Shown: piece after piece, positions 2,125 through 37,339 of the stretch
Numbering within the stretch: position 1 is the first letter of the stretch
Layout of the letters: every line of letters starts with the position of its first letter
Source of the DNA: Novosphingobium kunmingense
GTDB lineage: Bacteria; Pseudomonadota; Alphaproteobacteria; Sphingomonadales; Sphingomonadaceae
Reading direction: 5' to 3'
Assembly: GCF_002813245.1 (NCBI RefSeq)
Contig: NZ_PHUF01000007.1
Span: forward strand, 62,001 to 126,000
Length of the DNA stretch: 64,000 nucleotides
Made by a program: the position numbers and the translations under genes
Notes under the pieces: generated by a model
Told to the model about the DNA's origin: nothing
Seen by the model: the letters and a program-made list of their open reading frames with translations, nothing else
The model's database searches: none

Positions 2125-2135
2125 CCCGCGCCAGG

Positions 2136-2171
2136 CCCTGCCGCGTCAGTCCGGGCCGGAAAGCGGCAGGG
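2136..2171. terminator. Possible bidirectional hairpin between convergent genes
   Basis: CCCTGCCGC at 2136-2144 pairs perfectly with GCGGCAGGG at 2163-2171. The right arm lies inside the last codons of the minus-strand kinase. There is no T-tract, so intrinsic termination is uncertain. Confidence 0.3.
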
Positions 2172-3863: not shown

Positions 3864-4690
3864 GCGCCCTGCCTCAGATAGATCTTCTCGTCGCGAACGA
3901 ACTCCGTGAAAGCGGCAGAGTGGGCCGAAAAGCGCAGGCTCTCCTTCGATCCCAGCCCGAGAAAACCATGCCGGACTAGCGAATCCCGGAACAGACCCAC
4001 GGCGCGGTCCTGCAGGTCGCGATCGAAATAGATCAGTACGTTGCGGCAGGAAATAAGGTGCATTTCCGAAAAGACGGCATCGGTAACCAGGCTGTGATCG
4101 GAAAACACCACGCGTTCGCGCAGGGTCCGGTCGAAGACAGCGCGGCCATGATCGGCGCGGTAGTAGTCGGACAGCGAGGATCGCCCACCCGACTTCTGGT
4201 GGTTCTCGGTAAAGCGGCGGATCAGGTCGAGCGAATAGATCCCGGTTTCCGCCGCAACCAAGGCGTTGGGGTTGATGTCCGTGGCATAAAACAGGGTGCG
4301 ATCGTAAAGTCCTTCTTCGCGCAGCAGGATCGCCAGCGAATAGAGCTCCTCGCCATTGCTGCAGCCCGCCACCCAGACCTTGAGCGACGGATAGGTCTTG
4401 AGGTGGGGCACCACCTGTTCGCGCAGCGCCCGGAAATAACCGGGATCGCGAAACATTTCGCTGACCTGCACGGTCAGGTAATTGAGCAGCCGCGGCAACA
4501 GGGCCGCATCGTGGAGCAGCGCCTCCTGCATGGCCGACAGGCTGGCAAAGCCCAGCTGAATCCGCGCCTGGGTGAGCCGCCTCCGGATCGACGCACGCGC
4601 GTAGTGCCTGAAATCGTAGTGATAGCGCTGGTTCAAGGCCTCGAGCAGCAGCTCGATCTCGATATCCTCGACGGGTGCGGAGATGGTCAT
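3860..4690 (-). CDS. CheR-type protein-glutamate methyltransferase
   Basis: A 276-residue SAM-dependent methyltransferase of the CheR family, with an N-terminal helical CheR_N region and a catalytic domain including VWVAGCSNGEE (SAM-binding loop), ATDINPNAL and LISCRNVLIYF, which are hallmark CheR motifs. I chose the ATG at 4690, four bases after the stop of the upstream kinase, rather than in-frame ATGs that would overlap that kinase. There is no TPR or PAS extension. Its product should methylate glutamates on a partner not encoded here; the adjacent hybrid kinase is a candidate (inference). Confidence 0.9.
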   Translation of the reverse strand: MTISAPVEDIEIELLLEALNQRYHYDFRHYARASIRRRLTQARIQLGFASLSAMQEALLHDAALLPRLLNYLTVQVSEMFRDPGYFRALREQVVPHLKTYPSLKVWVAGCSNGEELYSLAILLREEGLYDRTLFYATDINPNALVAAETGIYSLDLIRRFTENHQKSGGRSSLSDYYRADHGRAVFDRTLRERVVFSDHSLVTDAVFSEMHLISCRNVLIYFDRDLQDRAVGLFRDSLVRHGFLGLGSKESLRFSAHSAAFTEFVRDEKIYLRQGA

Positions 4691-4694
4691 GGCC

Positions 4695-7600
4695 CTAACG
4701 CGGCATCCAGACGCGAACCAGTGACAACAACTTGTCGACATCGATCGGCTTGGCCATGTAATCGTTGGCACCGGCATCGAGGCACTTTTCCTGGTCGTCG
4801 GGCATGGCCTTGGCGGTCAGCATGACGATCGGCAGGTCGCGCCAGCGGGCGTCCTTGCGGATCGCGCGAGTAGCGGCAAGGCCGTCCATGATCGGCATCA
4901 TCACGTCCATCAGCACCAGGTCGATGGCCTTGCCCGGATCGTTCGCCGAAGCGGCAAGCGCTTCGATCGCCTCTTGACCGTTGCGGGCGATGGCGATGGC
5001 GGCACCGCGCGGCTCGAGAACACTGGTCAGCGAATACACGTTGCGCACGTCGTCTTCGACGATGAGGATGCGCCGGCCTTCGAGCACCGCGTCGCGGAAG
5101 CGTGCCTTCTGGATCATCTGTCGCTGTTCAGGCGGCAGATCGGCCACCACGCGGTGGAGGAACAGGGTCACTTCGTCGAGCAGACGTTCGGGCGATTTGG
5201 CACCCTTGATGATGATCGAGCTGGAATAGCGGCGCAGGCGCTGCTCGTCGTCGGGGCCAAGGTCATGGCCGGTGTAGACGATGACCGGCGGAAAACTCCG
5301 ATCCTCGCGGCTGCTCAGCGTCTCGAGCAAGTCGAATCCCGAAGCATCGGGCAGGTTCAGGTCGAGCACCATGCAGTCGAATGTCTGCTGACCGAGCTGG
5401 TCGAGGCATTCCGCGGCAGTCCCCACGGCGACGGTCTCGACTTCGTCCGAACCGAGCAGCTCGCGCACGGCTTCGCGCTGGACCTCGTTGTCCTCGACGA
5501 TCAGCACACGCCGCATCGTGGTCGAAAGCTGGTCCTGCAAATTGCCCAGCACCTGGGCCAGGTCGTCGTGCCGGATCGGCTTGATGTGATAACCGATCGC
5601 GCCGAGCGACAGCGCGGTCTGGCTGTAATCGCTTCCGGAAATGACGTGGACCGGAATGTGGCGAGTGGCTTCGTCATGCTTGAGCCGGTCGAGCACGGTC
5701 AGGCCGGATTGATCGGGCAGACCGAGATCGAGGACGATTGCGCTCGGCCGATGCTCACCGGCCAGCCGAACCGCTTCTTCGGCAGTGCTGGCGACGATGC
5801 ACTGGAAACCCATCTGCTGCGACAGGTCGGCAACGATCGACGCGAAGTCCGCGTCGTCCTCGATCACCAGCAGAATGCGGCGCGAGGGGTCGAGCGTGTT
5901 GCGATCGTCGCGAACGACCTTGCGCGGCTGGCGCGTGGTGGAAAGGTTTGCCGCGGCGGGCGGCCCCGCCGGAATGGCGACCGGCGCCACGGGCACGGCA
6001 GTACGGGCAGCCACCTTCGACGGATCGTAGTTGACCGGCACGGTAAGGGTGAAGGTGCTGCCTTTGCCCGGCGTGCTATCCAGCGTTATCGCACCGCCGA
6101 GGAGACGCGCCAGCTCGCGCGAAATCGACAGGCCCAGCCCGGTTCCGCCGAAGCGTCGGCTGATCGTCCCGTCGGCCTGCTGGAACGCCTCGAAAATGGA
6201 CTGCTGCTGCTCGCGCGAGATGCCGATGCCAGTGTCCTCCACCGCAAAGGCCAGCCTGCCCTCGTCCACCGTCGCAATCCGCAGTTTCACGCTGCCCTGC
6301 TCGGTGAACTTGAACGCGTTCGACAACAGGTTGCGCAGGATCTGCTCCAGCCGCAGACGGTCGGTCTCGACCGCGTCGGACAATCCGCCTTGCAGCTCGA
6401 CGGCAAACGCGACGCCGCGCTGGTCGGCCACCGGGGCGAAGACCTGTTCGAGATCTGCGGTCAGCCGCTGCAACGACACCACTTCGGGCTGGATCTGGAC
6501 ATGGCCGGCCTCGATCTTCGAGAGGTCGAGGATGTCGTTGATGAGGGTGAGGAGATCGTTGCCCGAGGATTCGATCGTCCGTGCGAACCTGACCTGGTCG
6601 TCGGACAGGTTGCCCTCGCCGTTGTCGCCCAGGAGCTTCGAGAGGATCAGCAGCGAATTGAGCGGGGTGCGCAATTCGTGGCTCATGTTGGCAAGGAAAT
6701 CGCTCTTGTACTGGCTCGCCTGTTCGAGTTCGCGCGCCTTGACGGCCAGGGCTCCTGCCCCCTTCTCCAGCTGGTCGCGCTGCGTTTCGAGAAGCTGGGC
6801 CTGCTCTTCGAGTTCGCTGTTGGTCTGTTCCAGTTCGGCCTGCTGCTGCTCGAGCCGCGCCTGCGATTCCTTGAGCGCGCGACCCTGCTCCTCGAGCTCC
6901 TCGTTCGAAACGCGGAGCTCCTCGCTCTGCGCCTGGAGCTCGGCCGCCTGGCGCTGCGTTTCCTCAAGTGCATCCTGCAACCGTGCGCGAAACCGCGCCG
7001 AACGAAGCGCGATGCCAAGGCTGTCCGACGCCTGTTCGAGCAAGGCCAGCGTGTCCTCCGGAACCGGCCTGAAAAAGCCAAGTTCGATCACCGCGTTGAC
7101 CGTCCCGTCGGCGGTTGCGGGGGCGATGACGATATGGCGCGGCTGCGCGCTGCCGAAGGCGGAGCCGACCGAAAGATAAGTCTCGGGCACATCGCTCAGC
7201 ACGACGGCCCGGTTGCTTTCGGCGACCTTGCCGAGCAGCCCGTCGCCGTATCCGAAGGCGTCGGGCATGACGACGCTGGCCGGCACGCCCAAGGTGGCAA
7301 TGCGGCGGAAGGTCCCGCCCTCGCCCTTGAACACGGCGCCGCCCTCGAACCCAAGATACTGTGCCAGGTAGACCAGGACGTCATGGCCGATCTGTTCGAT
7401 CGTCTTGTCGCCGCGTGTCGCCGTGACAAGGCCGACTAGGCCCGCACTGAGCCAGTCCTGCCGCCGCCGCTGGCCCATGGCGCGACGCACCAGGAGGAAG
7501 ATCGCGATCGTCAGCGCCGCACCGATCAGCGCCATGACCACGCTGCTGGTCAGCGCGCTGCGCGACGCGACGGACATCTCGGCGATGCGAAGCTGGCGCT

Positions 7601-8141
7601 GCCGCAGCTCCTCGCGACTCATGATGCTGATCTGGTTGCGGATCGCGTCCATTTCGATCTTGCCACGGTCGCCCAAGGCCAGGTTCTGATCGAGGCCGGA
7701 CGCCTCGTCCTGACGGACATCCAGCCCTTTCCGTAGCAGCTCCAACTTGGCCGCGATGCGCGGCTTGAGGTCGGTGAGGTTCGCGGTCTGGAAGGCATCG
7801 TCCGCAACCAGTTGCTCAACTTTCGCAAGCCGCGTCGGGACCAGCGCTGCGGCTGTCGTATAGGGTTCGAGGTAAGCCTCTCGCTTGGTCAGCAGATAGC
7901 CGCGCTGGCCGGTTTCCGCGTCCTTCAAGGTCGAGATCAGGCTGTCGAGGGCGATCAGCACCTCGTGCGTTTCGCGAACCTCCCGATCGGCGTTGCGAAG
8001 AAGCTGGATATTCGTCCACGACAGGGCACCGCTGACCAGAAAGAACGCCAGTCCGGTAACGAGACCCACGACCGTCCAGAAACGGCCCCCCAACTCTTGA
8101 CGCAATTGACTTTCCCCACTCACCCGAACCGGGCCGACCAA
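4695..8141 (-). CDS. CHASE3-GAF hybrid histidine kinase with three receivers
   Basis: 1148 residues. Membrane helices at about 22-44 and 198-218 flank a periplasmic CHASE3 domain (about 45-190, with GQRGYLLT). A GAF domain (250-385) and a long Glu/Gln-rich coiled coil (385-480) follow. HisKA has His488 (MSHELRTP) and the HATPase lies at about 595-705. Three receivers have acceptors Asp805, Asp927 and Asp1079. REC1 and REC2 lack a canonical spacing of the switch residues, while REC3 looks complete (MLTAKA, KP). It is the first gene of the operon with CheR, CheB and a receiver-kinase. It resembles the stress-sensing multi-receiver hybrids common in soil alphaproteobacteria; the signal is unknown. 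Confidence 0.92.
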
Positions 8142-24557: not shown

Positions 24558-25379
24558 ATGAGCGATGCTTCTTCCCCTCGGCTGGCCCGCACTATCGGCA
24601 GATCGGTCTTTGGCGCAGACGCACAGGGCTACGAGGCCGGCCGCATCGGCTATCCTCCCGAACTTTACGAGGCCATCAAAGGCAGTATCCGGTTTCCGCT
24701 CGGGACGGCGCTCGAGATCGGACCCGGAACCGGCCTTGCGACACGCGAGATCCTGGCAACCCTGGCGCCCCAGCGCTTGATCCTTGTCGAAGCGGATGCC
24801 GCGCTTGCCCGGCATCTCGAGGTTACGATCGCGGATCCGCGCGTGACGGTAACCTGTGGCGACTTCGTCAACGCGCCGGTCGATACGCAAGTGGAACTGG
24901 CGTGTTCGGCCGCATCGTTCCACTGGTTGGAGCCCAGCGCCGCCTTCGCTCGCCTGCGCACTTTGCTTGTCCCGAACGGAACGCTCGCATTGTGGTGGAA
25001 CGCCTATCGCGTAACGGGAATCGGGGATCTGTTCTCCGATGCCGTCACGCCGCTCCTGGCCGGGATCGAGCTGCCGCCGTCCGAAGGCGTGGACCAGCAT
25101 TATTCGCTCGATGTGGATCACCATCGGCAAGCGATCGAGAGTGCCGGGTTCGAAAGGTTCGAACCGTTTCTCTTCCGCCGCGAGCGTGTTCTCACCACGG
25201 ACCAGATTCACGCACTCTACGCCAGCTATTCGTACATTCGCGCGCTGCCGCCAGCGCGCCGCCAAGCGCTGATGGACCAAATTGTCCGCATCGCCGAGCG
25301 CGATTTCGGCGGAAACGTGCCCAACGTAACGCTATCCGCGCTCTACCTGGCCAAGGCTCCGGCGAAACCTGCACCCTAG
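24558..25379 (+). CDS. Class I SAM-dependent methyltransferase
   Basis: 273 residues. SAM motif I is ALEIGPGTGLATREIL (about 51-66), followed by an acidic post-motif (LVEADAALARHL). CGDFVNAPV and a C-terminal lid domain rich in aromatic residues follow, resembling the UbiE/trans-aconitate-like small-molecule methyltransferases. The start at 24558 gives a typical N-terminus (SVFGADAQGYEAGRIGYP). It overlaps the stop of the convergent PstS-like gene by 4 bases. The substrate is unknown. Confidence 0.82.
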   Translation: MSDASSPRLARTIGRSVFGADAQGYEAGRIGYPPELYEAIKGSIRFPLGTALEIGPGTGLATREILATLAPQRLILVEADAALARHLEVTIADPRVTVTCGDFVNAPVDTQVELACSAASFHWLEPSAAFARLRTLLVPNGTLALWWNAYRVTGIGDLFSDAVTPLLAGIELPPSEGVDQHYSLDVDHHRQAIESAGFERFEPFLFRRERVLTTDQIHALYASYSYIRALPPARRQALMDQIVRIAERDFGGNVPNVTLSALYLAKAPAKPAP

Positions 25380-26854
25380 GGCACGGCTTCGAGGGCTGTC
25401 AGCTTGGCAAGTTCCTGCGCAGCTTCCCCAGCCGTGAGGGGGAAATATCCCGAATAGCGAACGCGTTCCTGGCCTTCGCGGCTAAGCACATAGCGCAGGA
25501 ACTGAAGGGTCGCGGCCGATGGCTTGCCGTTGGCCAGCCTGATGTACATGAAGCGCGTCAGGGGATACCGGCCACTTGCCGCATTGTCCGCGTTCATCGC
25601 CACCGGAGGCTGAGCGCCATCCCTGGCGACGTCCAGCGCGCGCAGACCGGGAAGGCCTTCCTCAAGGCCGCCGAAGGCGATCGCGCCCGGGTCGCCCAGC
25701 ACGGCTTGTGCGGTGGGCTGGATCGGTGCTTCCCGGGCAGCGGCGTTCCATCCGGCCATGCCCAGCAGCATCTGGAACGACACCGCATTGGGTGCGACCC
25801 GGGGCGGCATGCGCACGACGATCGGCCGTTCTGCCCAATCTCCCGTCAGGCCGAGCTGTCCCCAGCGCGTGATAGTCGGGTTTGCCCCGAAAACCCCGCG
25901 AAGCTGAGCAAGAGTGACCGCCCGGAGCGGGTTGTCGGGGTGGACGAAGATTGCCTGCGCCGTGGTGCGTTGCGGCGTGTTGAATCCGCCGCGCGCGACC
26001 CTGATTTCGACGGGCGATGGCGAGGCGAAGACCGACCGCCAGGCTGCGGCCTCTTGCGGCCACAATTCGCGGCCCATTGGGGCCAGGTCGGCCTCCTCCG
26101 CCAGCATGGCATGGAAACCGTTCAAGGTTCCGAAGTGCTCCCACCGTTCGCCCTTGGAGACGCCGGGCTGAAGCACCGCAAAGCGGCATTCCCACCCATC
26201 GACAAGATCTTTCATTCCGTCGCTGCCGACGCTGCGGATCACGCCGCTCAGCCCCGCTACCGGACGGTAGGCCGGCAGCCCGGGATCCAGCGGAGCGACG
26301 AACCCTTGGAGCTTGGCGCGCTCGGCAAGGCGTTCGCTGGCGCCTAGAAGCTTGAGGCCAGGCAGGCCCGCCAGTGCGTCCTGACCCTTGTCCGACAAGG
26401 CGAAATCGAGGAACTTCCGGACACGCTCGGGCAGCGGCGCGTCGGGCCGCTTGTTTACGGCAATCGTTGCGGACCGATCCGCCAGGCGACCGATCGTGAC
26501 TACAAACGGCGCCTTCATCATGTCGCCGCGGTACTGGTGGTCGTAGGGCGCCAGTTCGGCGGGACTGAACGCGCGGGTAATTGGCCCCATGTCGGCCTTT
26601 GCGAACATCAGGCTGGGCATGGCGCTGTCCGCGCTCTTGTGCGTCCATACGTCCGGCCGGCGCAGCTTGGGATTGGCCTTGGCGTAGGCGGACAGAAGGC
26701 GGTCCATGGCTGGGCCCATCGCGGGATCGCCGATGCTCGACGGAACGCGGCTTTCCAGCCAGTCGGTTGCGCAAGTGGAAGCCTGGGCGGCGGCCGGTGC
26801 CAAAAGCAGGGCGAAGGAAATGGCTTTGGAGATCATGGTATGGCTCTGGCGCAT
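25376..26854 (-). CDS. Two-module PstS-like periplasmic binding protein (half module + full module)
   Basis: 492 residues; ATG 26854 has GAGGGGAG five bases upstream. After a signal peptide (cleavage near AQA at 25) there is a compact half-size binding module (about 40-185). A linker LDPGLPAYRP (190-198) leads to a full PstS-like module (about 200-492) with the shared phrase WGQLGLTGDWAERPI at 331-345 and C-terminal YPLTRFMYI and LSREGQERV. The half module lines up with the separate 193-residue protein at 30231-30812, and the linker matches the N-terminus of the next protein there. It probably binds phosphate or another oxyanion or ligand in the periplasm; no ABC permease is nearby. A Pho-box-like repeat lies about 260 bases upstream. 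Confidence 0.85.
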   Translation of the reverse strand: MRQSHTMISKAISFALLLAPAAAQASTCATDWLESRVPSSIGDPAMGPAMDRLLSAYAKANPKLRRPDVWTHKSADSAMPSLMFAKADMGPITRAFSPAELAPYDHQYRGDMMKAPFVVTIGRLADRSATIAVNKRPDAPLPERVRKFLDFALSDKGQDALAGLPGLKLLGASERLAERAKLQGFVAPLDPGLPAYRPVAGLSGVIRSVGSDGMKDLVDGWECRFAVLQPGVSKGERWEHFGTLNGFHAMLAEEADLAPMGRELWPQEAAAWRSVFASPSPVEIRVARGGFNTPQRTTAQAIFVHPDNPLRAVTLAQLRGVFGANPTITRWGQLGLTGDWAERPIVVRMPPRVAPNAVSFQMLLGMAGWNAAAREAPIQPTAQAVLGDPGAIAFGGLEEGLPGLRALDVARDGAQPPVAMNADNAASGRYPLTRFMYIRLANGKPSAATLQFLRYVLSREGQERVRYSGYFPLTAGEAAQELAKLTALEAVP

Positions 26855-27322
26855 CGAGGCTCCCCTCGCCAATCGGTCGGATGACGCAGTGGGGCGCTAC
26901 GGCGTGTGACGGCCCGGTCCATTGCGCCTTCCCGCCTCGAGTTCAGACTTCCACTGGCGCGTGGAATGATCCCGGCTGAGCACCTTGAGGTATTTTGCCC
27001 GGAATTGGGCGGGCAGCTCACCGACCTGGGCGCGGTCCGTCGACGACCATATCCCGCAACGCGACCCTTAGCACGATTGAGCCTTTTCATCGCAAGCCCA
27101 ACCCGATCCGGCACGACAGCAAAGTGACAGCTAGGCCCGCTAGTCGTGCTGAAATTCCCGGTACCAGTGTCCGGGGGGAGGATGGAAGACTTCGGTGGCC
27201 GCAGCGGCGAGCAGGTCGTGGCTGTCGGTTCGGTCAGGAACACGCATTAGGATCCTTGGGGCGCAAGATCGGCGAAGCCAGCGTCGTGAACAAGAAGGAT
27301 CCGATGGATTGGGAGTAGGACT
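26855..27322. other. Divergent intergenic region, 468 bases
   Basis: Lies between the two-module PstS-like gene (minus) and the CitMHS operon (plus). It holds a Pho-box-like repeat (27115-27130) and the CitMHS ribosome-binding site (GGGAGTAGGA before 27323). No coding sequence is recognised. Confidence 0.6.
27115..27130 (-). promoter_or_regulatory. Pho-box-like direct repeat
   Basis: GACAG at 27115-27119 and 27126-27130 repeat with 11-base spacing. Read on the minus strand this is CTGTCAC-TTTG-CTGTCGT, close to the PhoB consensus of two CTGTCA(T/C) units 11 bases apart. It lies between the two PstS-related transcription units. Confidence 0.55.
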
Positions 27323-28657
27323 ATGTTGTCAGTGCTAGCGTTCGCCATGGTCGCGACATTCATGACGCTCATTATGATGAAGCGGCTATCCGCGATCGTC
27401 GCGCTGATCCTCGTGCCGATCATCTTTGCGGTCGTTGCCGCGGCGCTTGTTGGCGGCTTCGGCATCGGGGACCTCGGTTCGATGATGATGGACGGCGTCA
27501 AGGAACTGGCACCGACCGGGGTCATGCTCGTCTTCGCGATTCTCTACTTCGGCCTGATGATCGACGTCGGTCTGTTCGATCCGATGATCGGCAGCATCGT
27601 GCGCCTGGTTCATGGTGACCCGGTGCGCGTTCTCGTCGGCACCGCGGTCCTTGCACTTATCGTCTCGCTCGACGGTGACGGCGCCACAACCTACATGATC
27701 ACGACAGCTGCGATGCTACCGCTCTATCGCCATCTCAAGATGGACGTTCGCATGCTGGCCTGTGTGGTCATCATGGCCGGCGCCGTGATGAATATCCTGC
27801 CCTGGGGCGGTCCGACGGCGCGCGTGATGAGCGCCCTCAAGCTCGAAGCGGGCGAAGTTTTCGTACCGCTGATCCCGGCCATGGGCGCGACGGCGCTCTG
27901 GGTTCTGTTCGTCGCCTATCGCTTTGGCCTCAAGGAACGCGCGCGGCTTGCCAGGCTACCCGCCGAAGCGATCGACGAGGACGCGAGCGCAGACGAGATC
28001 ATCGCCGAAGACAGCCACAGTCACGTCGAAGCACGCCGCCCCGGCCTCTTCTGGTTCAACTTTGCCCTGACCGCCGGCCTGCTCATGGCGCTGATCCTCG
28101 GTGCCATGCCTCTCGCGGTGCTGTTCATGATTAGCTTCGCCATTGCCATTACCGTGAATTATCCGAACCTCAGCCAGCAGCGCGACCGGCTTGCCGCCCA
28201 TGCCGGCAATGCCCTTGCCGTCGCCGGGCTGGTCTTCGCCGCGGGCATCTTCACCGGCATCCTGTCGGGTACCAAGATGGTCGACGCGATGTCGGCGTCG
28301 GTGATCGCGGCCATTCCGGCCTCGTGGGGTCCGTACATGGCGCCGATCACGGCGGTGATCAGCGCACCCTTCACGTTCTTCATTTCGAACGATGCGTTTT
28401 ATTTCGGAATGCTGCCGATCCTGGCAGAGGCCGGCGCGCACTATGGCGTCACCGCGGCGGAAATCGGCCGTGCGTCGCTGGTTGGCCAGCAAGTGCACCT
28501 GCTCAGCCCGCTAGTCGCCTCGACCTACCTTCTGGTCGGTTTCGTCGGGATCGAATTCGGTGAGCACCAGAAGTTCACGCTCAAGTGGGCTATCGGCTCG
28601 TTTGTCGTTTTCTTCCTGGTCTGCCTCGCGACGGCGGTATTCCCATTCGTCGCCTAA
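27323..28657 (+). CDS. CitMHS family citrate transporter
   Basis: 444 residues, about 12 predicted membrane helices, with the CitMHS phrases SLDGDGATTYMITTAAMLP and NILPWGGPTARV that form the re-entrant substrate region. CitMHS proteins (for example Bacillus CitM and CitH) are secondary transporters that take up citrate, usually as a complex with a divalent metal ion, with proton symport. A cytoplasmic His/Asp/Glu-rich loop (SADEIIAEDSHSHVE, about 220-235) could bind metal. It is the first gene of an operon leading into the TctC-LuxR fusion (95-base gap) and two PstS-like proteins. Confidence 0.9.
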   Translation: MLSVLAFAMVATFMTLIMMKRLSAIVALILVPIIFAVVAAALVGGFGIGDLGSMMMDGVKELAPTGVMLVFAILYFGLMIDVGLFDPMIGSIVRLVHGDPVRVLVGTAVLALIVSLDGDGATTYMITTAAMLPLYRHLKMDVRMLACVVIMAGAVMNILPWGGPTARVMSALKLEAGEVFVPLIPAMGATALWVLFVAYRFGLKERARLARLPAEAIDEDASADEIIAEDSHSHVEARRPGLFWFNFALTAGLLMALILGAMPLAVLFMISFAIAITVNYPNLSQQRDRLAAHAGNALAVAGLVFAAGIFTGILSGTKMVDAMSASVIAAIPASWGPYMAPITAVISAPFTFFISNDAFYFGMLPILAEAGAHYGVTAAEIGRASLVGQQVHLLSPLVASTYLLVGFVGIEFGEHQKFTLKWAIGSFVVFFLVCLATAVFPFVA

Positions 28658-28752: not shown

Positions 28753-30171
28753 ATGTCGTACTTTGCGAGAGGCCTCGCCATTTCCAGCCGATTGCAGCGC
28801 GCCTTGGCCGCACTGGTCTTGGCGTGGTCGCTTCTGGCCTCCCCGGCCCACGCCGGTGCCCCCCAGGAACGCCTGACTCTGGTGGTCCCGGGAGCCGTCG
28901 GCGGAGGTTGGGATCTGACCGCCAAGGCCATGAAGGACTCGCTCGAGCGCGAAGGCATCGTACGCTCGGTCGAAATCGTCCGTTATCCGGGAACGGGCGG
29001 GCTTGTCGGCCTCGCCCAGTTCGTCGCGCATCACCGCGGTCAGGACGATGTCCTTCTGGTGGGCGGTCTCACCATGCTGGGCGCGGCCCTGACCGATAGC
29101 GCAGCAATCTCCCTTCGCGACGTGACGCCGGTCGCGCGGCTGGCAGGCGACTGGGGCCTGATCGCGGTGCCCGCGAACTCCCCCATCAAGGACATCGAAG
29201 ATCTCAAGCGCACGATGCGATCGGGACCGGGCGGTCTGCGCTGGTCGGGCGGCGCGCTGGGCAGCTCGGACCAGGCGCTGGTCTGGAGCATGGCCAGTCA
29301 GCTTGGCGTGCCGCTCGACAACGTACTCTATTATGGCAAGGTCGGCGGGCGGAACGCTGCGGAAATGCTCATGTCGAACCGGGCCGATGTCGCGGTGAGC
29401 GGGTTTGCGGAATTTGCCCCCCATCTCAAAAGCGGCCGGCTTCGCGCAATCGCCATCGACGCCCCAAGGCGTTTTGCCGAAGTGGATGTGCCCACGCTGC
29501 GTGAAAGCGGGATCGACGTTTCGATGATGAACTGGCGCGGCGTCTTCGGCGCGCCGGGCCTCACTATCGCGCAGCAGGACCGGCTGTCAGCCCTGATCGT
29601 TGCAATGGAACGGTCATCGACCTGGCGTGCGCGGATTGCCCAGTCGCACTGGACTCCGGCCTATCTCGATCCCGCCGCGTTCTCGCGGTTTATCGACCGC
29701 GAATCGTCGCGGTGGCCGGCCCTGGTCAATCCGCCGATGCGGACCGGGAACGAAGTCTTCGTCGCTGAGGCGCAGCTGCCGCAAGGCCTGCTGTGGTCAC
29801 TCGCCGGGTTGGCGATGGCCCTGGCGACCGCCGCCGGCAAGCTGCTGATCCGACTGCGCGAACGCCAGCGGATCGAGCAGGACCTCAAGTTGCGCTGCGG
29901 CGAATTGTCGAGCAAGCTCGAAGAGGCCAAATCGGCGCGCTCGGCGGTGGTCCTCGAAGGCATCAAGGACGATTTCGGCGAGTGGAACCTTTCGTTCGCC
30001 GAGCGCGACGTGGCCTGGTTCATGCTGCGCGGCCTGCCGCTCAAGCAGATCGCCACGCTTCGCGGCACCAGCGAGCGGACCGTTCGCCAGCAGGCGCAGG
30101 CCATCTACCGTAAGGCCGGGCTCGAAAGCCGGTCCGACCTTGCCGGCCGCGTGCTCGAGCGCTTCATCTGA
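28753..30171 (+). CDS. TctC-type periplasmic binding domain fused to LuxR-type HTH through a membrane helix
   Basis: 472 residues. The chosen ATG 28753 follows GGGAGAGAG. Layout: signal/anchor helix about 16-34; TctC (Bug-type tricarboxylate-binding) domain about 38-325 with LVVPGAVGGGWDLTAKAM, RYPGTGG and LSALIVAM; membrane helix about 345-366; charged coiled coil 367-400; and a LuxR/GerE-type helix-turn-helix about 412-472 (LSFAERDVAWFMLRGLPL, SERTVRQQAQAIYRKAGLESRSDLAGRVL). TctC proteins normally deliver citrate-like ligands to TctAB permeases, absent here. The fusion should place a ligand sensor outside and a DNA-binding domain inside: a ToxR-like one-component regulator. The neighbouring citrate transporter suggests a tricarboxylate ligand and that transporter as target. 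Confidence 0.85.
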   Translation: MSYFARGLAISSRLQRALAALVLAWSLLASPAHAGAPQERLTLVVPGAVGGGWDLTAKAMKDSLEREGIVRSVEIVRYPGTGGLVGLAQFVAHHRGQDDVLLVGGLTMLGAALTDSAAISLRDVTPVARLAGDWGLIAVPANSPIKDIEDLKRTMRSGPGGLRWSGGALGSSDQALVWSMASQLGVPLDNVLYYGKVGGRNAAEMLMSNRADVAVSGFAEFAPHLKSGRLRAIAIDAPRRFAEVDVPTLRESGIDVSMMNWRGVFGAPGLTIAQQDRLSALIVAMERSSTWRARIAQSHWTPAYLDPAAFSRFIDRESSRWPALVNPPMRTGNEVFVAEAQLPQGLLWSLAGLAMALATAAGKLLIRLRERQRIEQDLKLRCGELSSKLEEAKSARSAVVLEGIKDDFGEWNLSFAERDVAWFMLRGLPLKQIATLRGTSERTVRQQAQAIYRKAGLESRSDLAGRVLERFI

Positions 30172-30230
30172 GGGCTGCATGAGCCATCCGACGCATGGAC
30201 CGGACCGCCATTCGCACCTCACAAGGGGGC

Positions 30231-30812
30231 ATGGCCGGTCCGTGGTCCCTCCCTGTACAGCGCAATGCTGCAGCCCGCGCGCTCAACACCGTGCTGGCAG
30301 TGGCCATCCATGTCTTCCTGAGCGGTGGCCCGACGCCGACGCAACAGACCGGCGATCTCCGCATCGTCGGTTCGCGGGCGATGACGGCTGCGATCGGAAA
30401 CTGGACGGCGCTGTTCCACAAGAAGCATCCACATGTTCACGTGCGACAGGTCCTGATTGGGGACGGCGCAGCAGCGAGCGCGCTTGCCAGCCGGCGGGCC
30501 GATCTTGCGCCGCTGTCCCGGCCCCTTGCGCCGCAGGAACGTTCGCTGATCGGACCAGCGGCGCAGCCCGTGGGCATTCCCGTCGGAGCAACGATCAGCA
30601 GGCGAGGCGGCGGCAACTGGGTCTATCTCTATGTCGCCTCGCCCGGCGACGGGCCCGCCCGGTCGCTGGCCCTGGACTTCGTTCGCACGGCGCTCAGCCC
30701 GGCCGGACAGGCCCGCATGACCGGCTCTTTCGCGCCGCTTCCGGATGGGCAACGCAGCGCCTCACTTTCGCAGCTGGCAACGCTCAACCGCACGGCAATG
30801 CCGCACCCCTAA
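30231..30812 (+). CDS. Half-size PstS-like binding-module protein
   Basis: 193 residues. ATG 30231 has AAGGGGG directly upstream, better than the in-frame ATG at 30195. An N-terminal hydrophobic segment (about 15-33) exports or anchors it. The remainder follows a periplasmic-binding-protein lobe: IVGSRAMTAAIGNWTALF, LASRRADLAPLSRPL, then directly ALDFVRTALSPAGQARMTG. The middle part that full PstS-like proteins have (the WGxLGxxGxW-RP segment) is missing. It matches the N-terminal module of the protein at 25376-26854. It starts 59 bases after the TctC-LuxR gene and ends 19 bases before the full-length protein. It may pair with that protein as a two-subunit receptor. Confidence 0.75.
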   Translation: MAGPWSLPVQRNAAARALNTVLAVAIHVFLSGGPTPTQQTGDLRIVGSRAMTAAIGNWTALFHKKHPHVHVRQVLIGDGAAASALASRRADLAPLSRPLAPQERSLIGPAAQPVGIPVGATISRRGGGNWVYLYVASPGDGPARSLALDFVRTALSPAGQARMTGSFAPLPDGQRSASLSQLATLNRTAMPHP

Positions 30813-30831
30813 CCGCCACTGGAGTAAATTG

Positions 30832-32010
30832 ATGCGGAACATATTCCTCCTTGGTGCTTGCCTCTCACTGACCGTTTCCGGCGCGAGCCTCGCGTCCGAT
30901 GGCCCTTCGAAGCCGGCCCCGCCGGTGCGGCCGGGCCAAACGACCTGGCTCGAGCCGACCCCTGGCGAGGTCTTCGCTCCGTCCGATGAACAGAAAGCCG
31001 CGGCACAGCAGTCCGGCCGTCCGCTGCCGACGCCCGAGCTTCTTCGGCCGTCGCTTGATCCTGCCCTGCCTCACTACACGCCGACGCCGGGCTTGACGGT
31101 CAGGGCCACGTTCCGTGCAGGCTCGTCCGACATCCTGCCCACGCTCGTCACGGCCTGGGTGAAGGCGTTCCGGGCATATCATCCCGGATTCCAGCTGGAG
31201 ATCGATCGGCCCATGGCCGGAAGTCTCGGCGCACTCGAGCTGATCAAGGGCAACCTCGATCTCGTCTTCGTCTCGCGCGAACTCAAGCCGACCGACATTT
31301 CGGGCTTTCGCGACAAGTTCGGCTACGACCCGTTTTCCGTGCCGGTCTCGGGTGGAAGCTGGCGCCACTTCGGCTTTCTCGATGCCCTTGGGATCATGGT
31401 TCATCCCAGCAACCCGGCAAAGCAACTGACCTTCGCCCAGCTGGACGCGGCATTCTCTTCAACGCGCCATCGCGGCGGAAAGGAAGTGAAGACTTGGGGA
31501 GACCTCGGTCTGGGCGGCAAATGGGCCAAGAGACCGGTCCACTTGTACGGGATCGCGCCGTGGAACGGTTTCGAAGAGTTCGTTCGCCAGCGCGTCATGT
31601 CGACCAAGGGCAAACGCGGCGAGTGGAGCAAGCACGTCACCTTCGACCCGACGTTCTTCAACGTCGCGCGCCGTGTTGCCAACGATCCAAACGCGCTGGG
31701 CTACACCGGACTTTCGGCGATCGATTCCGAGGTCAAGATCGTGCCGGTGAAGGTTTCGGACACGGCGCCTGCGCTTTCGCCGACCTACGAGAACGTCGCG
31801 AGCGCGGCCTATCCGCTGAGCCGTGTGATCTACCTCAACACCAACCCCCGCTCCCCCGCGGCGGCCAATCCGGCGATGAGCGAACTGATCAAGTTCATCC
31901 TCAGCGCCGAAGGCCAGGCCGTCGTGCAGCAGCACGGCATCTATCTGCCGTTGCGGGGATCCCAGGTCGAGGAAAGCCGCGATCTCGCTCTCTCGCTGAC
32001 CGGTCATTGA
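30832..32010 (+). CDS. PstS-like periplasmic binding protein
   Basis: 392 residues; GGAG precedes ATG 30832. Signal peptide to about 22, then a Pro-rich extension (25-84) ending in LDPALPHYTP, a phrase also found in the linker of the fused protein at 25376-26854. The binding domain follows: FRAGSSDIL, MAGSLGALELIKGNLDLVFVSREL, WGDLGLGGKWAKRPVHLYG (about 222-240), YPLSRVIYLN and a C-terminal FILSAEGQAVVQQHGIYLPL. The family binds phosphate or related oxyanions, but the ligand here is not proven, and no pstCAB genes are near. It is the last gene of the CitMHS-led operon. Confidence 0.87.
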   Translation: MRNIFLLGACLSLTVSGASLASDGPSKPAPPVRPGQTTWLEPTPGEVFAPSDEQKAAAQQSGRPLPTPELLRPSLDPALPHYTPTPGLTVRATFRAGSSDILPTLVTAWVKAFRAYHPGFQLEIDRPMAGSLGALELIKGNLDLVFVSRELKPTDISGFRDKFGYDPFSVPVSGGSWRHFGFLDALGIMVHPSNPAKQLTFAQLDAAFSSTRHRGGKEVKTWGDLGLGGKWAKRPVHLYGIAPWNGFEEFVRQRVMSTKGKRGEWSKHVTFDPTFFNVARRVANDPNALGYTGLSAIDSEVKIVPVKVSDTAPALSPTYENVASAAYPLSRVIYLNTNPRSPAAANPAMSELIKFILSAEGQAVVQQHGIYLPLRGSQVEESRDLALSLTGH

Positions 32011-32175
32011 GCCTAAAGACCATATAAAATAACAATAAAAATAGAGACTTAGTTGCATGTAGCCCCTTCCGTCATTTGGCCGATGGACCAGCCAAGGCCA
32101 GAGGCGGAAGACACCAACGATCAAGAACGGAGCGACTCGCCTGTGCGGGTTCGGGAAACATGAGGAGGGAAGACG

Positions 32176-34533
32176 ATGTCATTTGAAAAGCCCAACCTGA
32201 CGGGATTGCGCACGGGAGCATCGACAACCGCGCTCGCCCTGCTCCTGCTGGCCACGCCGGGAATGAGCTGGGCGCAATCGGCCGATCAGGCGTCCGAGGA
32301 GGAAGCGCCGGCAGAGAGCGAGATCGTCGTGACCGGCCAGCTGCTCGACACGGGCGCATCGTCCGCCACCAAGCTAGACCTGCCGGTTCTCGACACGCCG
32401 TTCAGCGTGGCGAGCTACAACAACAATTTTCTCAAGGCGATCGAGACCTCGAGCGTTTCGGACCTCTATCGCTACATGACCGGAATCCAGCGGGCCGGAA
32501 ACACCGGCTACGACATCACCTTCCGCGGGTTCAAGACATCCGGGAACGATCGCAACGCGATCCTGACCGATGGCCTCCCCGGCCTTTCGGTCCGCTTCGG
32601 GTCGCCGCCGACCGTCGGCGTCGATCACATCGAACTGGTCAAGGGTCCGACCTCGGTCCTGTACGGACAGGCCCAGCCCGGCGGCTTCATCAACATCATT
32701 ACCAAGAAGCCGAGCGAGCGCTCAGGCTTCGAGATAACGCTCAAGGGCAACCATGGCGCCGGAACGTTCGATCGCGCGCAAGGCGGCCTGATCCAGCTCG
32801 ACTTCACCGGGCCGGTCACCGAGGACGGTGCGCTGTCCGCGCGCTTTGTCGGCGAAGGCGGGTACAATCAGGGCTTCCGCGATTTCTCCTACGAGAAGCC
32901 GATCTACGCGGCACCCAGCCTGACCTGGCGCGTGGGTCCGGACACCAGCCTGACCGTGCAGGGCGAATACCGCTGGATCAAGACGCATGTCGATACCTAT
33001 CTGGTCGCGCCGAACCGCGACGCCACCCGCGTGGCGGCGATCAACACCACCTATCAGGAAGAAGGCGACTATCTGGTCGAGCGCGGCACGATCGGTAACG
33101 TATATCTGAGCCACAGCTTCAGCCCAGACCTCAAGCTCAACCTGGGCTACCGCTACGTCGATCACATCGACACCCAGCGCAACTTCGACGTAGTCGGCTT
33201 CCGCGATACCGCCAACACGATCATCACGCGCCGGGCCCGCGGCCAGGAGAACAAGCGAACCTACAGCTTCGGCGACGCGAACCTCACCGCAAAGTTCGAC
33301 ACTTTCGGGTTCGCGCACACGCTGCTCGTCGGCGTGGCCGGTGGCCGGGAGACGGCGAGCCTCAATCGCCTGCAGTTCTACAACTGCACGGGCAGCGGGG
33401 CGACGGGATGCAACCGGCTCGACATTGCGCTCAACAACCCGGTGCATGGCACCTATCCCGGGCCGCAGACGTTTCCTCTGTTCAACCCGGGCCAGGCCTC
33501 GAACCTCAACTGGCGCTACACCACCCAGGAATCGCTCGGTGTCTACGGATCCGACTTCATCGAGTTCTCGGACATGTTCAAGGCCATGTTCGGCTTGCGC
33601 TACTCGAAGGAACGGCAGACGCTAGCCGATCTGCGTCTGACGACATTCGTGCCGTCGACCAAGAAGGACAGCAAGGTGCTGCCTTTCGGCGGCCTGCTGT
33701 TCCAGCCGATGCGGAACGTGTCGTTCTACACGAGCTACTCGACCTCGTTCGTGCCGGTCCCGGCCGCGCAGCAGGACGTGTTCGGCCTGAATCCGTTCAC
33801 GCCGACCAAGGCGAGCTCGATCGAAGGCGGGATCAAGGCCGAGCTGTTCGACAGGCGGCTCAATCTCACCGCCGCCTATTTCGACATCAAAAAGAAGGAC
33901 ACGATCAACACTTTCAGCTGTCCACTTACCCTGGCGGCGCTCAACGCGTTCATCACGGCCAACAACATCACGGTGCCCGCCAACGCGCCCCGCGATGCGG
34001 CCGGCAACCTGATACCAGGCAGCGGCACCTGCTCGAACCAGCTCGGGGGCGAACGCTCCAAGGGCTTTGAAATCGAAGGTAGCGCCTCGCCGCTGCCGAA
34101 CTGGCAGATCACCGCCGGCTATTCGCACATCGACGCCCGGGTGACCGCGTCGAATGTGCCGGGACAGACGGGCGCACGCTTGACCAACGCACCGGGCGAT
34201 GCCTTCAACCTGTGGACCCGCTACGATGTCGAGGAAGGCGGCCTCAAGGGTCTCGGCCTCGGCTTCGGCGTCTCGTATATCGGCAAGCGCGCCGGCCTTC
34301 TGCCGACGGCTGCAGTCGATGCGCGTCCCAAAGGCGGCACGCTTCCGCTCGACGCCTACACCACTGTCGACCTCGCGATGTACTACCAGGCATCCGAGAA
34401 CATCAACGTGACGCTGAAGGCGACCAACCTTCTCGACGAGCGCTATATCGAAAGCGCCGGCTTTACCGGCGATATCCAGCTGGTTCCGGGCGCTCCCCGC
34501 CTGCTCACGCTGACGGTTCGCGCCAAGTACTGA
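32176..34533 (+). CDS. TonB-dependent receptor, siderophore type
   Basis: 785 residues with GAGGAGGGA before the ATG. Signal peptide to about 34 (SWAQS), TonB box region EIVVTG, plug motifs ITFRGFKTSG, VDHIELVKGPTSVLYGQAQPGGFINIITKKPSE, then a barrel with a cysteine pair in an external loop (YNCTGSGATGCN) and a second pair in FSCPL...GTCSNQ, ending in LTVRAKY. The plug sequence is of the ferric-siderophore (FhuA/FpvA/FecA-like) class. It lies 165 bases after the PstS-like operon in the same direction, with an AT-rich stretch between (about 32020-32055), and is closed by a strong terminator. Ferric- or metal-citrate would fit the neighbours, by inference. Confidence 0.9.
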   Translation: MSFEKPNLTGLRTGASTTALALLLLATPGMSWAQSADQASEEEAPAESEIVVTGQLLDTGASSATKLDLPVLDTPFSVASYNNNFLKAIETSSVSDLYRYMTGIQRAGNTGYDITFRGFKTSGNDRNAILTDGLPGLSVRFGSPPTVGVDHIELVKGPTSVLYGQAQPGGFINIITKKPSERSGFEITLKGNHGAGTFDRAQGGLIQLDFTGPVTEDGALSARFVGEGGYNQGFRDFSYEKPIYAAPSLTWRVGPDTSLTVQGEYRWIKTHVDTYLVAPNRDATRVAAINTTYQEEGDYLVERGTIGNVYLSHSFSPDLKLNLGYRYVDHIDTQRNFDVVGFRDTANTIITRRARGQENKRTYSFGDANLTAKFDTFGFAHTLLVGVAGGRETASLNRLQFYNCTGSGATGCNRLDIALNNPVHGTYPGPQTFPLFNPGQASNLNWRYTTQESLGVYGSDFIEFSDMFKAMFGLRYSKERQTLADLRLTTFVPSTKKDSKVLPFGGLLFQPMRNVSFYTSYSTSFVPVPAAQQDVFGLNPFTPTKASSIEGGIKAELFDRRLNLTAAYFDIKKKDTINTFSCPLTLAALNAFITANNITVPANAPRDAAGNLIPGSGTCSNQLGGERSKGFEIEGSASPLPNWQITAGYSHIDARVTASNVPGQTGARLTNAPGDAFNLWTRYDVEEGGLKGLGLGFGVSYIGKRAGLLPTAAVDARPKGGTLPLDAYTTVDLAMYYQASENINVTLKATNLLDERYIESAGFTGDIQLVPGAPRLLTLTVRAKY

Positions 34534-35004: not shown

Positions 35005-36090
35005 TTACATCGTTGCCAGCTTGGCGAGCTCTTCCTGCACCACGTGCGGCTGAAGCGGGAGATAGACGCCGTCCGACGCGGCAGCTTCCTGACCCTCGCG
35101 GCTGAGGATCGCGCGGAGGAACTCCTTGGTCTTCGGCTCCAGCTTCGTGCCGGGCTTGTGGTTCACATAGACATAGACGTAGCGGCTAAGCGGGTAGGTG
35201 TGGTCATAGACCGACTGGGTCGTCGGCAGGACGCACTTGCCGCCGGGCTTTTCGCTCAGCGCGAGCACCTTGGTGTTGGGCTGCAGGTTGGCGAGCAGAG
35301 CGTAGGTCAGCCCGCCGGGCTTCTTCGCCATGTCATCGGCGGCCACGTTGAACGCGTGACTGAAGCCGATGCCCTTCACGAACTGGATGTCGTTCTTGTA
35401 CGCGCCCATCTCCATGACCTTGATCTTGAAGTACCATTCGATGCCGTTGGGCGAACGCAGGCCGTACTTGTGGATCGGGCGGTTGGCCCATTCGCCGGTC
35501 GCGCCGACCTGACCCCAGGTAGTGATGTCCGGGCCGCCGCGGTTGCGGGTCGTCGAGTACATCGAGTCGAGCTGCTGCAGGCTGAGGCAGCTCACCGGGT
35601 TGGCCTTGTCGACCATGATGATCGACGCCGCCGTCTTGCCCAGCGAACCGACGCTGCCGGTCGCCACGCGGAACGGCGTGGCATCATAGCCGAACTTGTT
35701 GCGGAATGCCTCGGCCTCGGCCGGCAGCAATTCGCGGCCGACCGGCGCGGCGTGGGCGATGCCATTGGTCAGGGCCGGACCGCCGGAACCGGACGCGCGG
35801 GCTTCCATGGTGACGCTGAGGCGCGGGTAGGCCTTGCGCATGAGCTTGACCCAGCCCAGCGTCATCTCGTCCATGACATCGGCGCCCACGACGTTGAACT
35901 CTTCCTCGGGTTCGGTAACGAGTGCGCCCGGCACCCACATCGGGATACGCTTGTCGGCATGGATGTTGTGCTCGCGCTTTGCGTATTTGAGCGCCGACGC
36001 CGGCACGCTCGCAAGCCCCCCGATGACGCCGACGATGGCGGCACTGGCGAGGATCGTCCGGACTTTTCTGGTCTTCCGTTTGTGGGTCAT
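35005..36090 (-). CDS. PstS-like periplasmic binding protein
   Basis: 361 residues. ATG 36090 has GGAGAGGAAG upstream. The basic N-terminus (MTHKRKTRKVRTI) and hydrophobic segment to about 30 (VPASA) make a signal peptide. The family core is present: FNVVGADVMDEM, EARASGSGGPALTNGIAHAAPVGREL, WGQVGATGEWANRPIHKYG, HTYPLSRYVYVYV and AILSREGQEAAASDGVYLPL. It is the only gene on its strand here and has its own terminator, so it is expressed as a single-gene unit. A Pho-box-like repeat lies about 63-80 bases upstream. A phosphate or phosphate-like ligand is likely from the family and promoter, not demonstrated. Confidence 0.88.
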   Translation of the reverse strand: MTHKRKTRKVRTILASAAIVGVIGGLASVPASALKYAKREHNIHADKRIPMWVPGALVTEPEEEFNVVGADVMDEMTLGWVKLMRKAYPRLSVTMEARASGSGGPALTNGIAHAAPVGRELLPAEAEAFRNKFGYDATPFRVATGSVGSLGKTAASIIMVDKANPVSCLSLQQLDSMYSTTRNRGGPDITTWGQVGATGEWANRPIHKYGLRSPNGIEWYFKIKVMEMGAYKNDIQFVKGIGFSHAFNVAADDMAKKPGGLTYALLANLQPNTKVLALSEKPGGKCVLPTTQSVYDHTYPLSRYVYVYVNHKPGTKLEPKTKEFLRAILSREGQEAAASDGVYLPLQPHVVQEELAKLATM

Positions 36091-36152
36091 GCTTCCTCTC
36101 CGTGTGTTTGCAAAGGCAATCTTTGTTGCGCCGCCACACCGGCGGTACGGGC

Positions 36153-36170
36153 AGACAGTAGATCGACAGC
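36153..36170 (-). promoter_or_regulatory. Pho-box-like direct repeat
   Basis: GACAG at 36154-36158 and 36165-36169, again 11 bases apart. On the minus strand this reads CTGTCGA-TCTA-CTGTCTG. It is placed upstream of the minus-strand PstS-like gene (start 36090) and in the region shared with the divergent PstS-like gene (start 36284). Confidence 0.5.
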
Positions 36171-36283
36171 GGGGCGAGGCGCTATGCGCCGAATGCTCGG
36201 GGGCATAGGTCATATGACTCAAAACCCCCTTGCGGACAGATGACGAATTGTTGCGGGGGCCGCTTCAGTGCCAGACGGCGCCC

Positions 36284-37339
36284 ATGGACCGCACCAAGCT
36301 GCATCAAGCCATGGGGACGTCGATCAGGGCGGCAGTCTTTGCGCTTTCCGCGCTGGCGGCGGAAACGGGCGCGCAACCCGCCGTGAATGAGGCCGTGACG
36401 GGCAGTGCTCCAACCATCATGAGCGGACTGGCTCCAGCATGGGCCGACGCCTTCGCCCGGCAGGGTGGAGATGTCCGGATCGCCGCCCCGTTCGGACCAC
36501 CGCAGGGAGCACTGGACCTCAACTTCGGCGCGTTCCTCGACGGCCGGCTTGCCTTCGCCTTCCTGACCCGCGAGATCGCCGAGGCCGACCTCGCGCGCTA
36601 TCGGGCCGGACACGACGGCCGCGAACCCTGCATCGTTCCCGTAGCGGGCGGCAACTGGAAGCGCTTTGGCTATGCCGACGCCGTGGCATTCATCGTAAAC
36701 CGACAGAATCCCCTGCGTCGGCTGTCCTTTCGGCAGATCGATTCGATCTACGCATCGCCCCCGCTGCATGGCGGCCCCAATGCGCGAACCTGGGGCGAAC
36801 TCGGGCTTGGCGGCAGCTGGCGACATCGCCCGATCCGCATCAAAGGCGGCGATGCATGGTCAAAGGAGGAATCCGCAAGGGCCCTCACCGTCCGGCGCCA
36901 GGTCCTGTCGCGCGAAGGTCGCACCGGGCTCTGGACCTTGGCGCCCGGTACAGGGGACGATCAGGATGTGGTGGCCCGCGTGGCGGCCGATCCCGAGGCG
37001 ATCGGCTTCACCGGACTGGGCCACGTCGAAGGGGCCGTAAGGGTCGTCGCGATCAACCGCGACGGGGAGCCCGCGATCCTGCCGACGGCCGATACTGCGC
37101 GCAGCGGTCGCTATCCGCTGCTGCGTACCATCGACATGCTGGTCGATCCCCATGCAACGGCATCCGCGTTTCCGTTTGCGCATTTCCTTCTGTCGAGAAG
37201 GGGGCAGTCCGTCATCGCGCAACAGGGCGATTTCATGAAGTTGCCGCCCGGAACGCTCCAGAAAGCGCTGCGCCGCCTTGATTGCCTGAAGCAACGCCGG
37301 CGCAGCGGTTCGAGCACTCCGGAAAGGTTGCAGGAATGA
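36284..37339 (+). CDS. PstS-like periplasmic binding protein
   Basis: 351 residues from ATG 36284; another in-frame ATG at 36311 is possible, and neither has a strong ribosome-binding site. A weak signal peptide ends near ETGAQ. The core is recognisable: SAPTIMSGLAPAWADAF, LAFAFLTREI, VPVAGGNWKRFGYADAVAFIV, WGELGLGGSWRHRPIRIKG and a C-terminal FLLSRRGQSVIAQQGDF. It has the extra basic tail LKQRRRSGSSTPERLQE. It is divergent from the other PstS-like gene across a 193-base region containing a Pho-box-like repeat. It is followed by a broken response-regulator gene. Confidence 0.82.
   Translation: MDRTKLHQAMGTSIRAAVFALSALAAETGAQPAVNEAVTGSAPTIMSGLAPAWADAFARQGGDVRIAAPFGPPQGALDLNFGAFLDGRLAFAFLTREIAEADLARYRAGHDGREPCIVPVAGGNWKRFGYADAVAFIVNRQNPLRRLSFRQIDSIYASPPLHGGPNARTWGELGLGGSWRHRPIRIKGGDAWSKEESARALTVRRQVLSREGRTGLWTLAPGTGDDQDVVARVAADPEAIGFTGLGHVEGAVRVVAINRDGEPAILPTADTARSGRYPLLRTIDMLVDPHATASAFPFAHFLLSRRGQSVIAQQGDFMKLPPGTLQKALRRLDCLKQRRRSGSSTPERLQE

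Follow-up and report, generated by a model that had tools for sequence, protein, structure and literature searches.

Solved and reviewed solute-binding proteins of the TctC/Bug family are soluble transport receptors, whereas the window analysed here, a 64,000-nucleotide stretch of Novosphingobium kunmingense DNA, encodes a protein of the same family and fold that is predicted to be membrane-bound and ends in a helix-turn-helix (HTH). The question raised by this locus is what such a fusion does. The reading we prefer, to which we assign a probability of about three in four in the absence of any experiment, is that it is a transmembrane one-component regulator, in which the TctC domain would sense a periplasmic tricarboxylate and a pair of HTH domains would bind the sequence ATccGtCAtaTGaCggAT and thereby set the transcription of uptake genes. 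The fusion gene and the gene directly before it are:

28753..30171, + strand: TctC, predicted membrane helix, coiled coil and NarL/LuxR-type HTH regulator, 472 aa (the fusion)
27323..28657, + strand: CitMHS citrate:proton symporter (TIGR00784, 558.9 bits; PF03600)

The single unbroken 472-residue frame and the CitMHS gene directly upstream were both described in the initial annotation; the coordinates of the former proved exact, and the latter scores far above the TIGR00784 cut-off of 259.7 bits. The sequence upstream of the ATG at 28753 includes a plausible ribosome-binding stretch, and the N terminus, a signal/anchor helix, resembles a signal sequence that may be cleaved after SPAHA, as judged by eye and without a predictor. 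The claimed TctC domain was confirmed by PF03401 (62.1 bits, E = 7.9e-17), which exceeds the curated Pfam cut-off of 27, with an extent of about residues 36–330. An AlphaFold2 model of the fusion, built from an alignment of 14 members (mean pLDDT 82.9, pTM 0.61), shows a binding-protein fold of strands and helices at 38–325, one helix at 342–410, read as running through the membrane into the coiled coil, and four helices at 415–471. TctC structures align to this model over residues 34–330 with Z scores of 28.9–33.8, followed by other binding proteins at 16.2, in agreement with the family assignment. The LuxR/GerE-type HTH had been called canonical, which is too strong: the match at about residues 413–471 is real, but PF00196 (GerE) scores 20.2 bits at 413–464, below the Pfam cut-off of 23.5, so that the curated threshold is not met. 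A profile built from 13 relatives retrieves NarL and GerE in the PDB with E values of 3.9e-4 to 8.7e-4. When modelled alone (mean pLDDT 87.5), the C-terminal part resembles the isolated DNA-binding domains of NarL, DosR, GerE, VraR and LiaR (TM-score 0.74–0.84), with nothing found among structures at E <= 0.001 and a best E value of 2.0e-3. The DNA-binding domain that defines a transmembrane one-component regulator is therefore present by both HTH profile and fold. No histidine kinase or receiver domain was detected in the protein (Pfam scan, E <= 1), and an N-terminal winged HTH of the CadC type is absent, the HTH being C-terminal and of the NarL/LuxR type.

The topology of the fusion is inferred from hydropathy only, without a dedicated topology predictor. 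The second hydrophobic helix of the window protein has a hydropathy peak of 1.58, the weakest of the 15 proteins scored, and the same helix in the other 14 fusion proteins peaks at 1.71 to 2.96. Because the window member has the weakest helix, the case for a membrane helix rests on its relatives.

The domain architecture and its neighbourhoods were searched as the initial annotation had proposed, yielding 16 distinct fusion loci in alpha- and gammaproteobacteria (the window, L031 to L041, L043, L079, L087 and L187; L042 and L032, the latter from genome G023, are identical DNA and were counted as one). A search of 118 related genomes returned three full-length copies, the window's among them; a scan of one genome per species gave at least 13 full-length loci among the 80 matches listed, and 396 genomes of the order added one further locus (G940). 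The carriers are recorded as Sphingomonadales, Phenylobacterium, Parvularculaceae, Woeseiaceae, Lysobacterales, Colwellia and an unplaced gammaproteobacterium, and most are metagenome bins, Colwellia maritima MSW7 (L087) not being marked as such. In an alignment of 15 proteins, the others are 28 to 57% identical to that of the window, and L187 is 35% identical to it by blastp. The segment SERTVRQQA in the region of the recognition helix is invariant in the 15 aligned proteins and is also present in L187. An assembly or frame artefact that joins two separate genes would have made the fusion spurious, and a frameshift splitting the domains in relatives had been named in advance as refuting it. 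None was found, as the fusion is a single frame in 16/16 loci of different assemblies (in G023, one flagged TAA lies upstream of the called frame start) and each half forms a single group in phylogenetic trees; the relatives thus refute this explanation, and we give it practically no weight. The fusion is rare in the genome samples searched. Matches to the C-terminal profile of more than 100 bits within an open frame of more than 400 residues were limited to the window's own among 385 genomes of the class, and again among 398 genomes of the phylum, with 3/396 in genomes of the order and 1/246 in those of one gammaproteobacterial family (G1261). These counts are lower bounds, as only the first candidates per genome were scored. 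Spread by plasmids was also considered and rejected: a tblastn search of 72,556 plasmid records gave 539 that matched, none covering 80% of the query, and the matches listed involve only its TctC part.

As computed from these loci, a tricarboxylate transporter lies near the fusion in 15/16, which supports, by computation only, the claim that the protein regulates tricarboxylate uptake. The transporter is CitMHS in two loci (the window and L033), the tricarballylate symporter TcuC in five (L032, L039, L040, L041 and L079) and TctA in eight (L031, L034, L036, L037, L038, L043, L087 and L187); families were set by family profiles in the window, L031 and L032, and elsewhere by blastp to those. CitMHS, TcuC and TctA are unrelated transporter families, and the substrates common to them are tricarboxylates. 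The L033 CitMHS frame (L033:444-1484) is 346 residues long and aligns over 258 residues to the 444-residue CitMHS of the window, as if it were interrupted or mis-assembled. No tricarboxylate transporter was identified near the fusion in L035, where the Phenylobacterium member (L035:7998-9422) adjoins a response regulator and may sense something other than a tricarboxylate. Two open frames of that locus, 4249-6879 and 6943-7797, were considered as genes and set aside, as no family was found for them and they are probably antisense. A TonB-dependent receptor is found near the fusion in 14/16 loci, the exceptions being L034 and L035.

The whole genome from which the window derives was found to contain no TctA and no second TctC, the TctC domain of the fusion being the only one, and this domain therefore cannot serve a TctA transporter there. 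It does not qualify as the TctC of a tripartite tricarboxylate transporter (TTT) working with TctA and TctB (there is no TctA; TctB was outside the search). The proposal that a receptor has been turned into a sensor is supported on these grounds, again by computation only. The accompanying statement that TctAB is lacking holds for TctA in this genome but does not extend to the family, other members of which adjoin TctA and TctB. It remains conceivable, if very improbable, that the protein is a tethered transport receptor with a relic HTH, since its TctC part retains the fold; against this, conservation along the fusion alignment is highest in the HTH region, this genome has no TctA, and a separate TctC adjoins the fusion in L034, L036 and L037. 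A protein combining TctC and TctB was observed in five loci (L031:5332-6750, L038:10151-11557, L043:5642-7003, L087:9324-10694 and L187:3969-5354), with both domains identified by Pfam in L031 and by blastp over most of the length in the others. Relatives of this combination occur in 2/196 genomes of the order, both of them fusion carriers, and a corresponding search for TcuC gave 0/196 genomes at E <= 1e-150, a result that carries no weight without a positive control. The only fusion named in the accessible part of a review of these systems is TctA-TctB.

In the window, the fusion lies within a cluster of uptake genes, four of which are predicted targets:

25376..26872, - strand: PstS-like binding protein (PF12849, 42.9 bits)
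30195..30812, + strand: short gene with a weak PstS-like match (PF12849, 21.5 bits, under the cut-off of 27); predicted target
30745..32010, + strand: PstS-like binding protein (PF12849, 57.7 bits; TIGR02136, 106.8 bits, under the cut-off of 206.6)
32176..34533, + strand: TonB-dependent receptor of the siderophore type (TIGR01783, 257.9 bits, cut-off 223.5); predicted target
35005..36222, - strand: PstS-like binding protein (PF12849, 49.5 bits); predicted target
36230..37339, + strand: PstS-like binding protein (PF12849, 37.8 bits); predicted target

Five PstS-like genes, including the short one under the Pfam cut-off, thus ring the fusion between 25376 and 37339, and their role beside the TonB receptor is unexplained. 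A relative of one of them precedes tctC in L036. Just beyond the cluster, the short frame at 37488-38048 matches a receiver domain at positions 40-111 only, and its start has perhaps been called too late.

Because the recognition segment is invariant, a shared DNA site was expected, and a palindrome search of 23 regions from 14 loci recovered the 18-bp dyad ATccGtCAtaTGaCggAT with a score of 102.0, as compared to 31.7–47.7 in eight first-order shuffles searched with equal effort. The dyad persists when three near-copy TcuC regions are removed (74.0 vs 32.7–46.1) and when the window and L033 are removed as well (68.3 vs 32.2–47.6). For scanning, the sites of each locus group were omitted from the matrix in turn. 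With the sites of the window and L033 left out, the three top matches in the 64 kb are those at 36205, 32067 and 30179; these hold their rank in both matrix versions, fall outside both window regions used for motif discovery, and all belong to the cluster of genes surrounding the fusion. The predicted operators of the window are:

36205..36222, no strand assigned: ATAGGTCATATGACTCAA, 22.9 bits, the top match of the 64 kb
32067..32084, no strand assigned: TTCCGTCATTTGGCCGAT, 92 bp upstream of the TonB receptor, 19.6 bits, second in the 64 kb
30179..30196, no strand assigned: ATGAGCCATCCGACGCAT, right after the fusion at the called start of 30195-30812, 15.3 bits, third in the 64 kb
26872..26889, no strand assigned: ATCGGTCGGATGACGCAG, weak candidate, 13.7 bits and fourth or 12.0 bits and fifth, depending on the matrix version

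The 36205 dyad lies between divergent PstS-like genes and overlaps the called start of the one on the minus strand. The 26872 dyad is located at the start of a divergent minus-strand PstS-like gene, about 430 bp upstream of CitMHS; at 12.0 bits, about two such matches per window are expected by chance, and alone it is not significant. No strong dyad precedes CitMHS in the window scan. Region 26855-27322, which the initial annotation had put forward as the binding region, accordingly contains a weak site only, the strong sites being found instead at the TonB receptor and PstS-like genes.

Dyads near uptake genes are found in other loci too. L033 has the layout of the window, with dyads downstream of the fusion (3260), upstream of a PstS-like gene (6280) and upstream of the TonB receptor (7320). 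Each of the five TcuC loci carries one dyad between tcuC and the fusion and another upstream of the TonB receptor, and in L031 and L043 two dyads lie in the interval from tctCB to the TonB receptor. At 15 bits or more, 34 dyads were counted in the 246.6 kb of the 16 fusion loci (20 kb of the window included), with 15/16 loci represented, as against 2 in 1,068 kb of TctC-only controls (2/67 loci); at 17 bits or more, there were 24 dyads in 14/16 fusion loci and none in the controls. These controls are mostly actinobacterial and address chance, with base composition taken into account, but not descent, and dyads within one locus group share descent. By reading of the loci, 31/34 dyads are located upstream of a gene for a fusion, transporter, TonB receptor, porin or PstS-like protein, or inside the called start of one, if the short gene that opens the pair following the fusion is classed as PstS-like; the other three are 5768 in L032, 5956 in L034 and 10290 in L035. 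In L038 nothing exceeds 11.4 bits with its own group left out, and in L034 the only match to reach 15 bits falls within a frame at some distance from tctC, the sites before tctC scoring 12.6–13.6 bits. Taken together, the conserved dyad near uptake genes supports action of the fusion on DNA, by computation only and without binding data, and bears only indirectly on control of transcription from the membrane.

In 400 kb of the window's own genome, the matrix finds three matches of at least 13 bits, two of them of at least 15 bits, compared with four and three in the 64-kb window. A near-perfect dyad, TTCCGTCACATGACGGAT, was observed at C2:418160 (L213:18160; 20.5 bits), well away from the fusion in an interval between frames, and is possibly a further target or a chance occurrence. 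The pattern WTNNGNCATHYGRCNNAW occurs at three places in this genome, all of them in this locus, and misses the 20.5-bit site; it was not counted, as it was written with knowledge of the window sites.

The placement of the strong window dyads, at the TonB receptor and PstS-like genes and not at CitMHS, leaves open a regulator of the same type whose ligand is not a simple tricarboxylate but, for example, a ferric complex or citrate-type siderophore entering through the TonB receptor, with outer-membrane and periplasmic uptake genes as its direct targets and CitMHS as a mere neighbour. The siderophore type of the receptor, above the TIGR01783 cut-off, is in keeping with this, as are structure chains and the available part of PMC5812351, according to which TctC proteins also bind aspartate, nicotinate and terephthalate. 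Such a ligand would not explain why three unrelated tricarboxylate transporter families lie near the fusion in nearly all loci, and a bystander role of the transporter is opposed by the dyads that separate tcuC from the fusion and those that precede tctCB. We regard this alternative as unlikely, though the strongest of those weighed here, and retain a tricarboxylate as the inferred ligand.

In the proposed mechanism, the periplasmic TctC domain would bind a free or metal-complexed tricarboxylate (citrate, tricarballylate or aconitate), and closure of its two lobes would move the single membrane helix and the coiled coil; both this transmembrane signalling and the dimerisation, in which the coiled coil would pair two cytoplasmic HTH domains, are inferred. 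The identity of the fusion as the dyad binder is likewise inferred. The HTH pair would bind the 18-bp dyad at the TonB receptor, at periplasmic binding proteins and mostly also at the tricarboxylate transporter, and the bound pair would set transcription of these targets from the membrane, probably switching it on. The preference for activation over repression is an inference from the spacing of the dyads, which lie 0 to about 240 bp upstream of the called TonB, tcuC and tctCB starts, many at 50–115 bp, and would suit an activator. Release of the DNA-binding part by regulated proteolysis, or a need for a partner protein, could take the place of action by the intact chain. Nothing here excludes this, and membrane regulators with partners, ToxR/ToxS and VtrA/VtrC, are known from the part of PMC9214523 that was available; no conserved partner gene besides the TonB receptor and transporter was found in the 16 loci, which speaks against a partner, protease genes having been outside the search. 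We consider it improbable, slightly more so than a different ligand, and keep to an intact one-component regulator.

Membrane transcription regulators are a known class (PMC10269533, accessible part), and those of the ToxR/CadC type share with the fusion a DNA-binding domain, the lack of a kinase and, on its predicted topology, a membrane helix in the same protein and a periplasmic sensor (PMC10269533, same part). In ToxR and CadC a CadC-type HTH lies at the N terminus and the sensor at the C terminus (PMC9214523, in the available part), whereas the fusion has the reverse order, an HTH of the NarL/LuxR type, and a TctC binding protein as its sensor. The use of solute-binding domains as sensors of kinases and regulators is known generally (PMC9602780, as far as available). 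In the BctC-BctE/BctD system of Bordetella, as in our proposal, a member of the TctC family signals the presence of citrate in the periplasm to transporter genes, and citrate-loaded BctC, which docks on a histidine kinase, shows that transmembrane signalling by such a protein is possible (PMC5812351 and PMC9602780, both in their accessible parts). There the receptor is a separate protein, whereas in the fusion receptor and DNA-binding domain form one chain with no kinase or receiver. The portion of the PMC10269533 survey at hand reports that about 57% of membrane transcription regulators have no recognisable domain besides the DNA-binding one. Searches of the open-access literature found no description of a TctC-HTH fusion, although the supplementary tables of PMC10269533, which cover the domains of 50,302 regulators, may hold one unremarked. 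Within that scope, the joining of TctC to a predicted membrane helix and a NarL/LuxR-type HTH at the C terminus appears to be new, as do its association with three transporter families and its operator.

The nearest kin of the C-terminal part of the fusion are short proteins of about 160–250 residues (as open frames) that have a coiled coil and the same HTH type and, by eye, two hydrophobic stretches. By prediction, these two-helix regulators of about 160–210 residues share with the fusion the C-terminal membrane helix, the coiled coil and the HTH, but they lack the binding domain. They resemble the NCBIfam family LIC13292 (NF047608), with scores under its cut-off; the fusion itself scores 55.6 bits against a cut-off of 200 and is not a member by that threshold. 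Among nine short-protein loci examined, the regulator of L192 (7165-7656) lies beside a CusA/CzcA-type efflux pump (1781-4852; 922 bits, cut-off 701.45), frames of 1,021–1,043 residues occupy similar places in L189, L190, L191, L193 and L195 (judged by length only), and L194, L196 and L197 have no such long frame near the short regulator. In a tree of the TctC part, the 16 fusions form one group with support of 100/99; in a tree of the HTH part they group more weakly (89/43; 88% of 200 bootstrap trees). Long branches drew a warning from the program (L043, L038 and L087 in the former tree), as did the few columns of the latter. As each half groups the fusions together, a single fusion event is favoured, and the simplest account suggested by these sequences is that a TctC domain once replaced the short periplasmic loop of a two-helix regulator. 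We lean, with less assurance than for the mechanism, towards regarding the fusions as a distinct class of membrane transcription factor that arose once in this way and retained a single DNA address as it spread alongside tricarboxylate transporters of three unrelated kinds, linking periplasmic ligand capture to outer-membrane, periplasmic and inner-membrane genes; in some genomes the receptor would be without a transporter and serve as a sensor only.

Membrane-bound transcription factors are common, and few have known ligands or targets. The fusion has as its sensor a fold with a known ligand class, together with a predicted operator and predicted target genes. It is thus a ready test case for how the closure of a binding protein may be transmitted through the membrane by a single chain with no kinase, and might act as a chassis on which binding proteins could be swapped to make sensors. 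It would also provide one explanation for TctC-type proteins that occur without a transporter.
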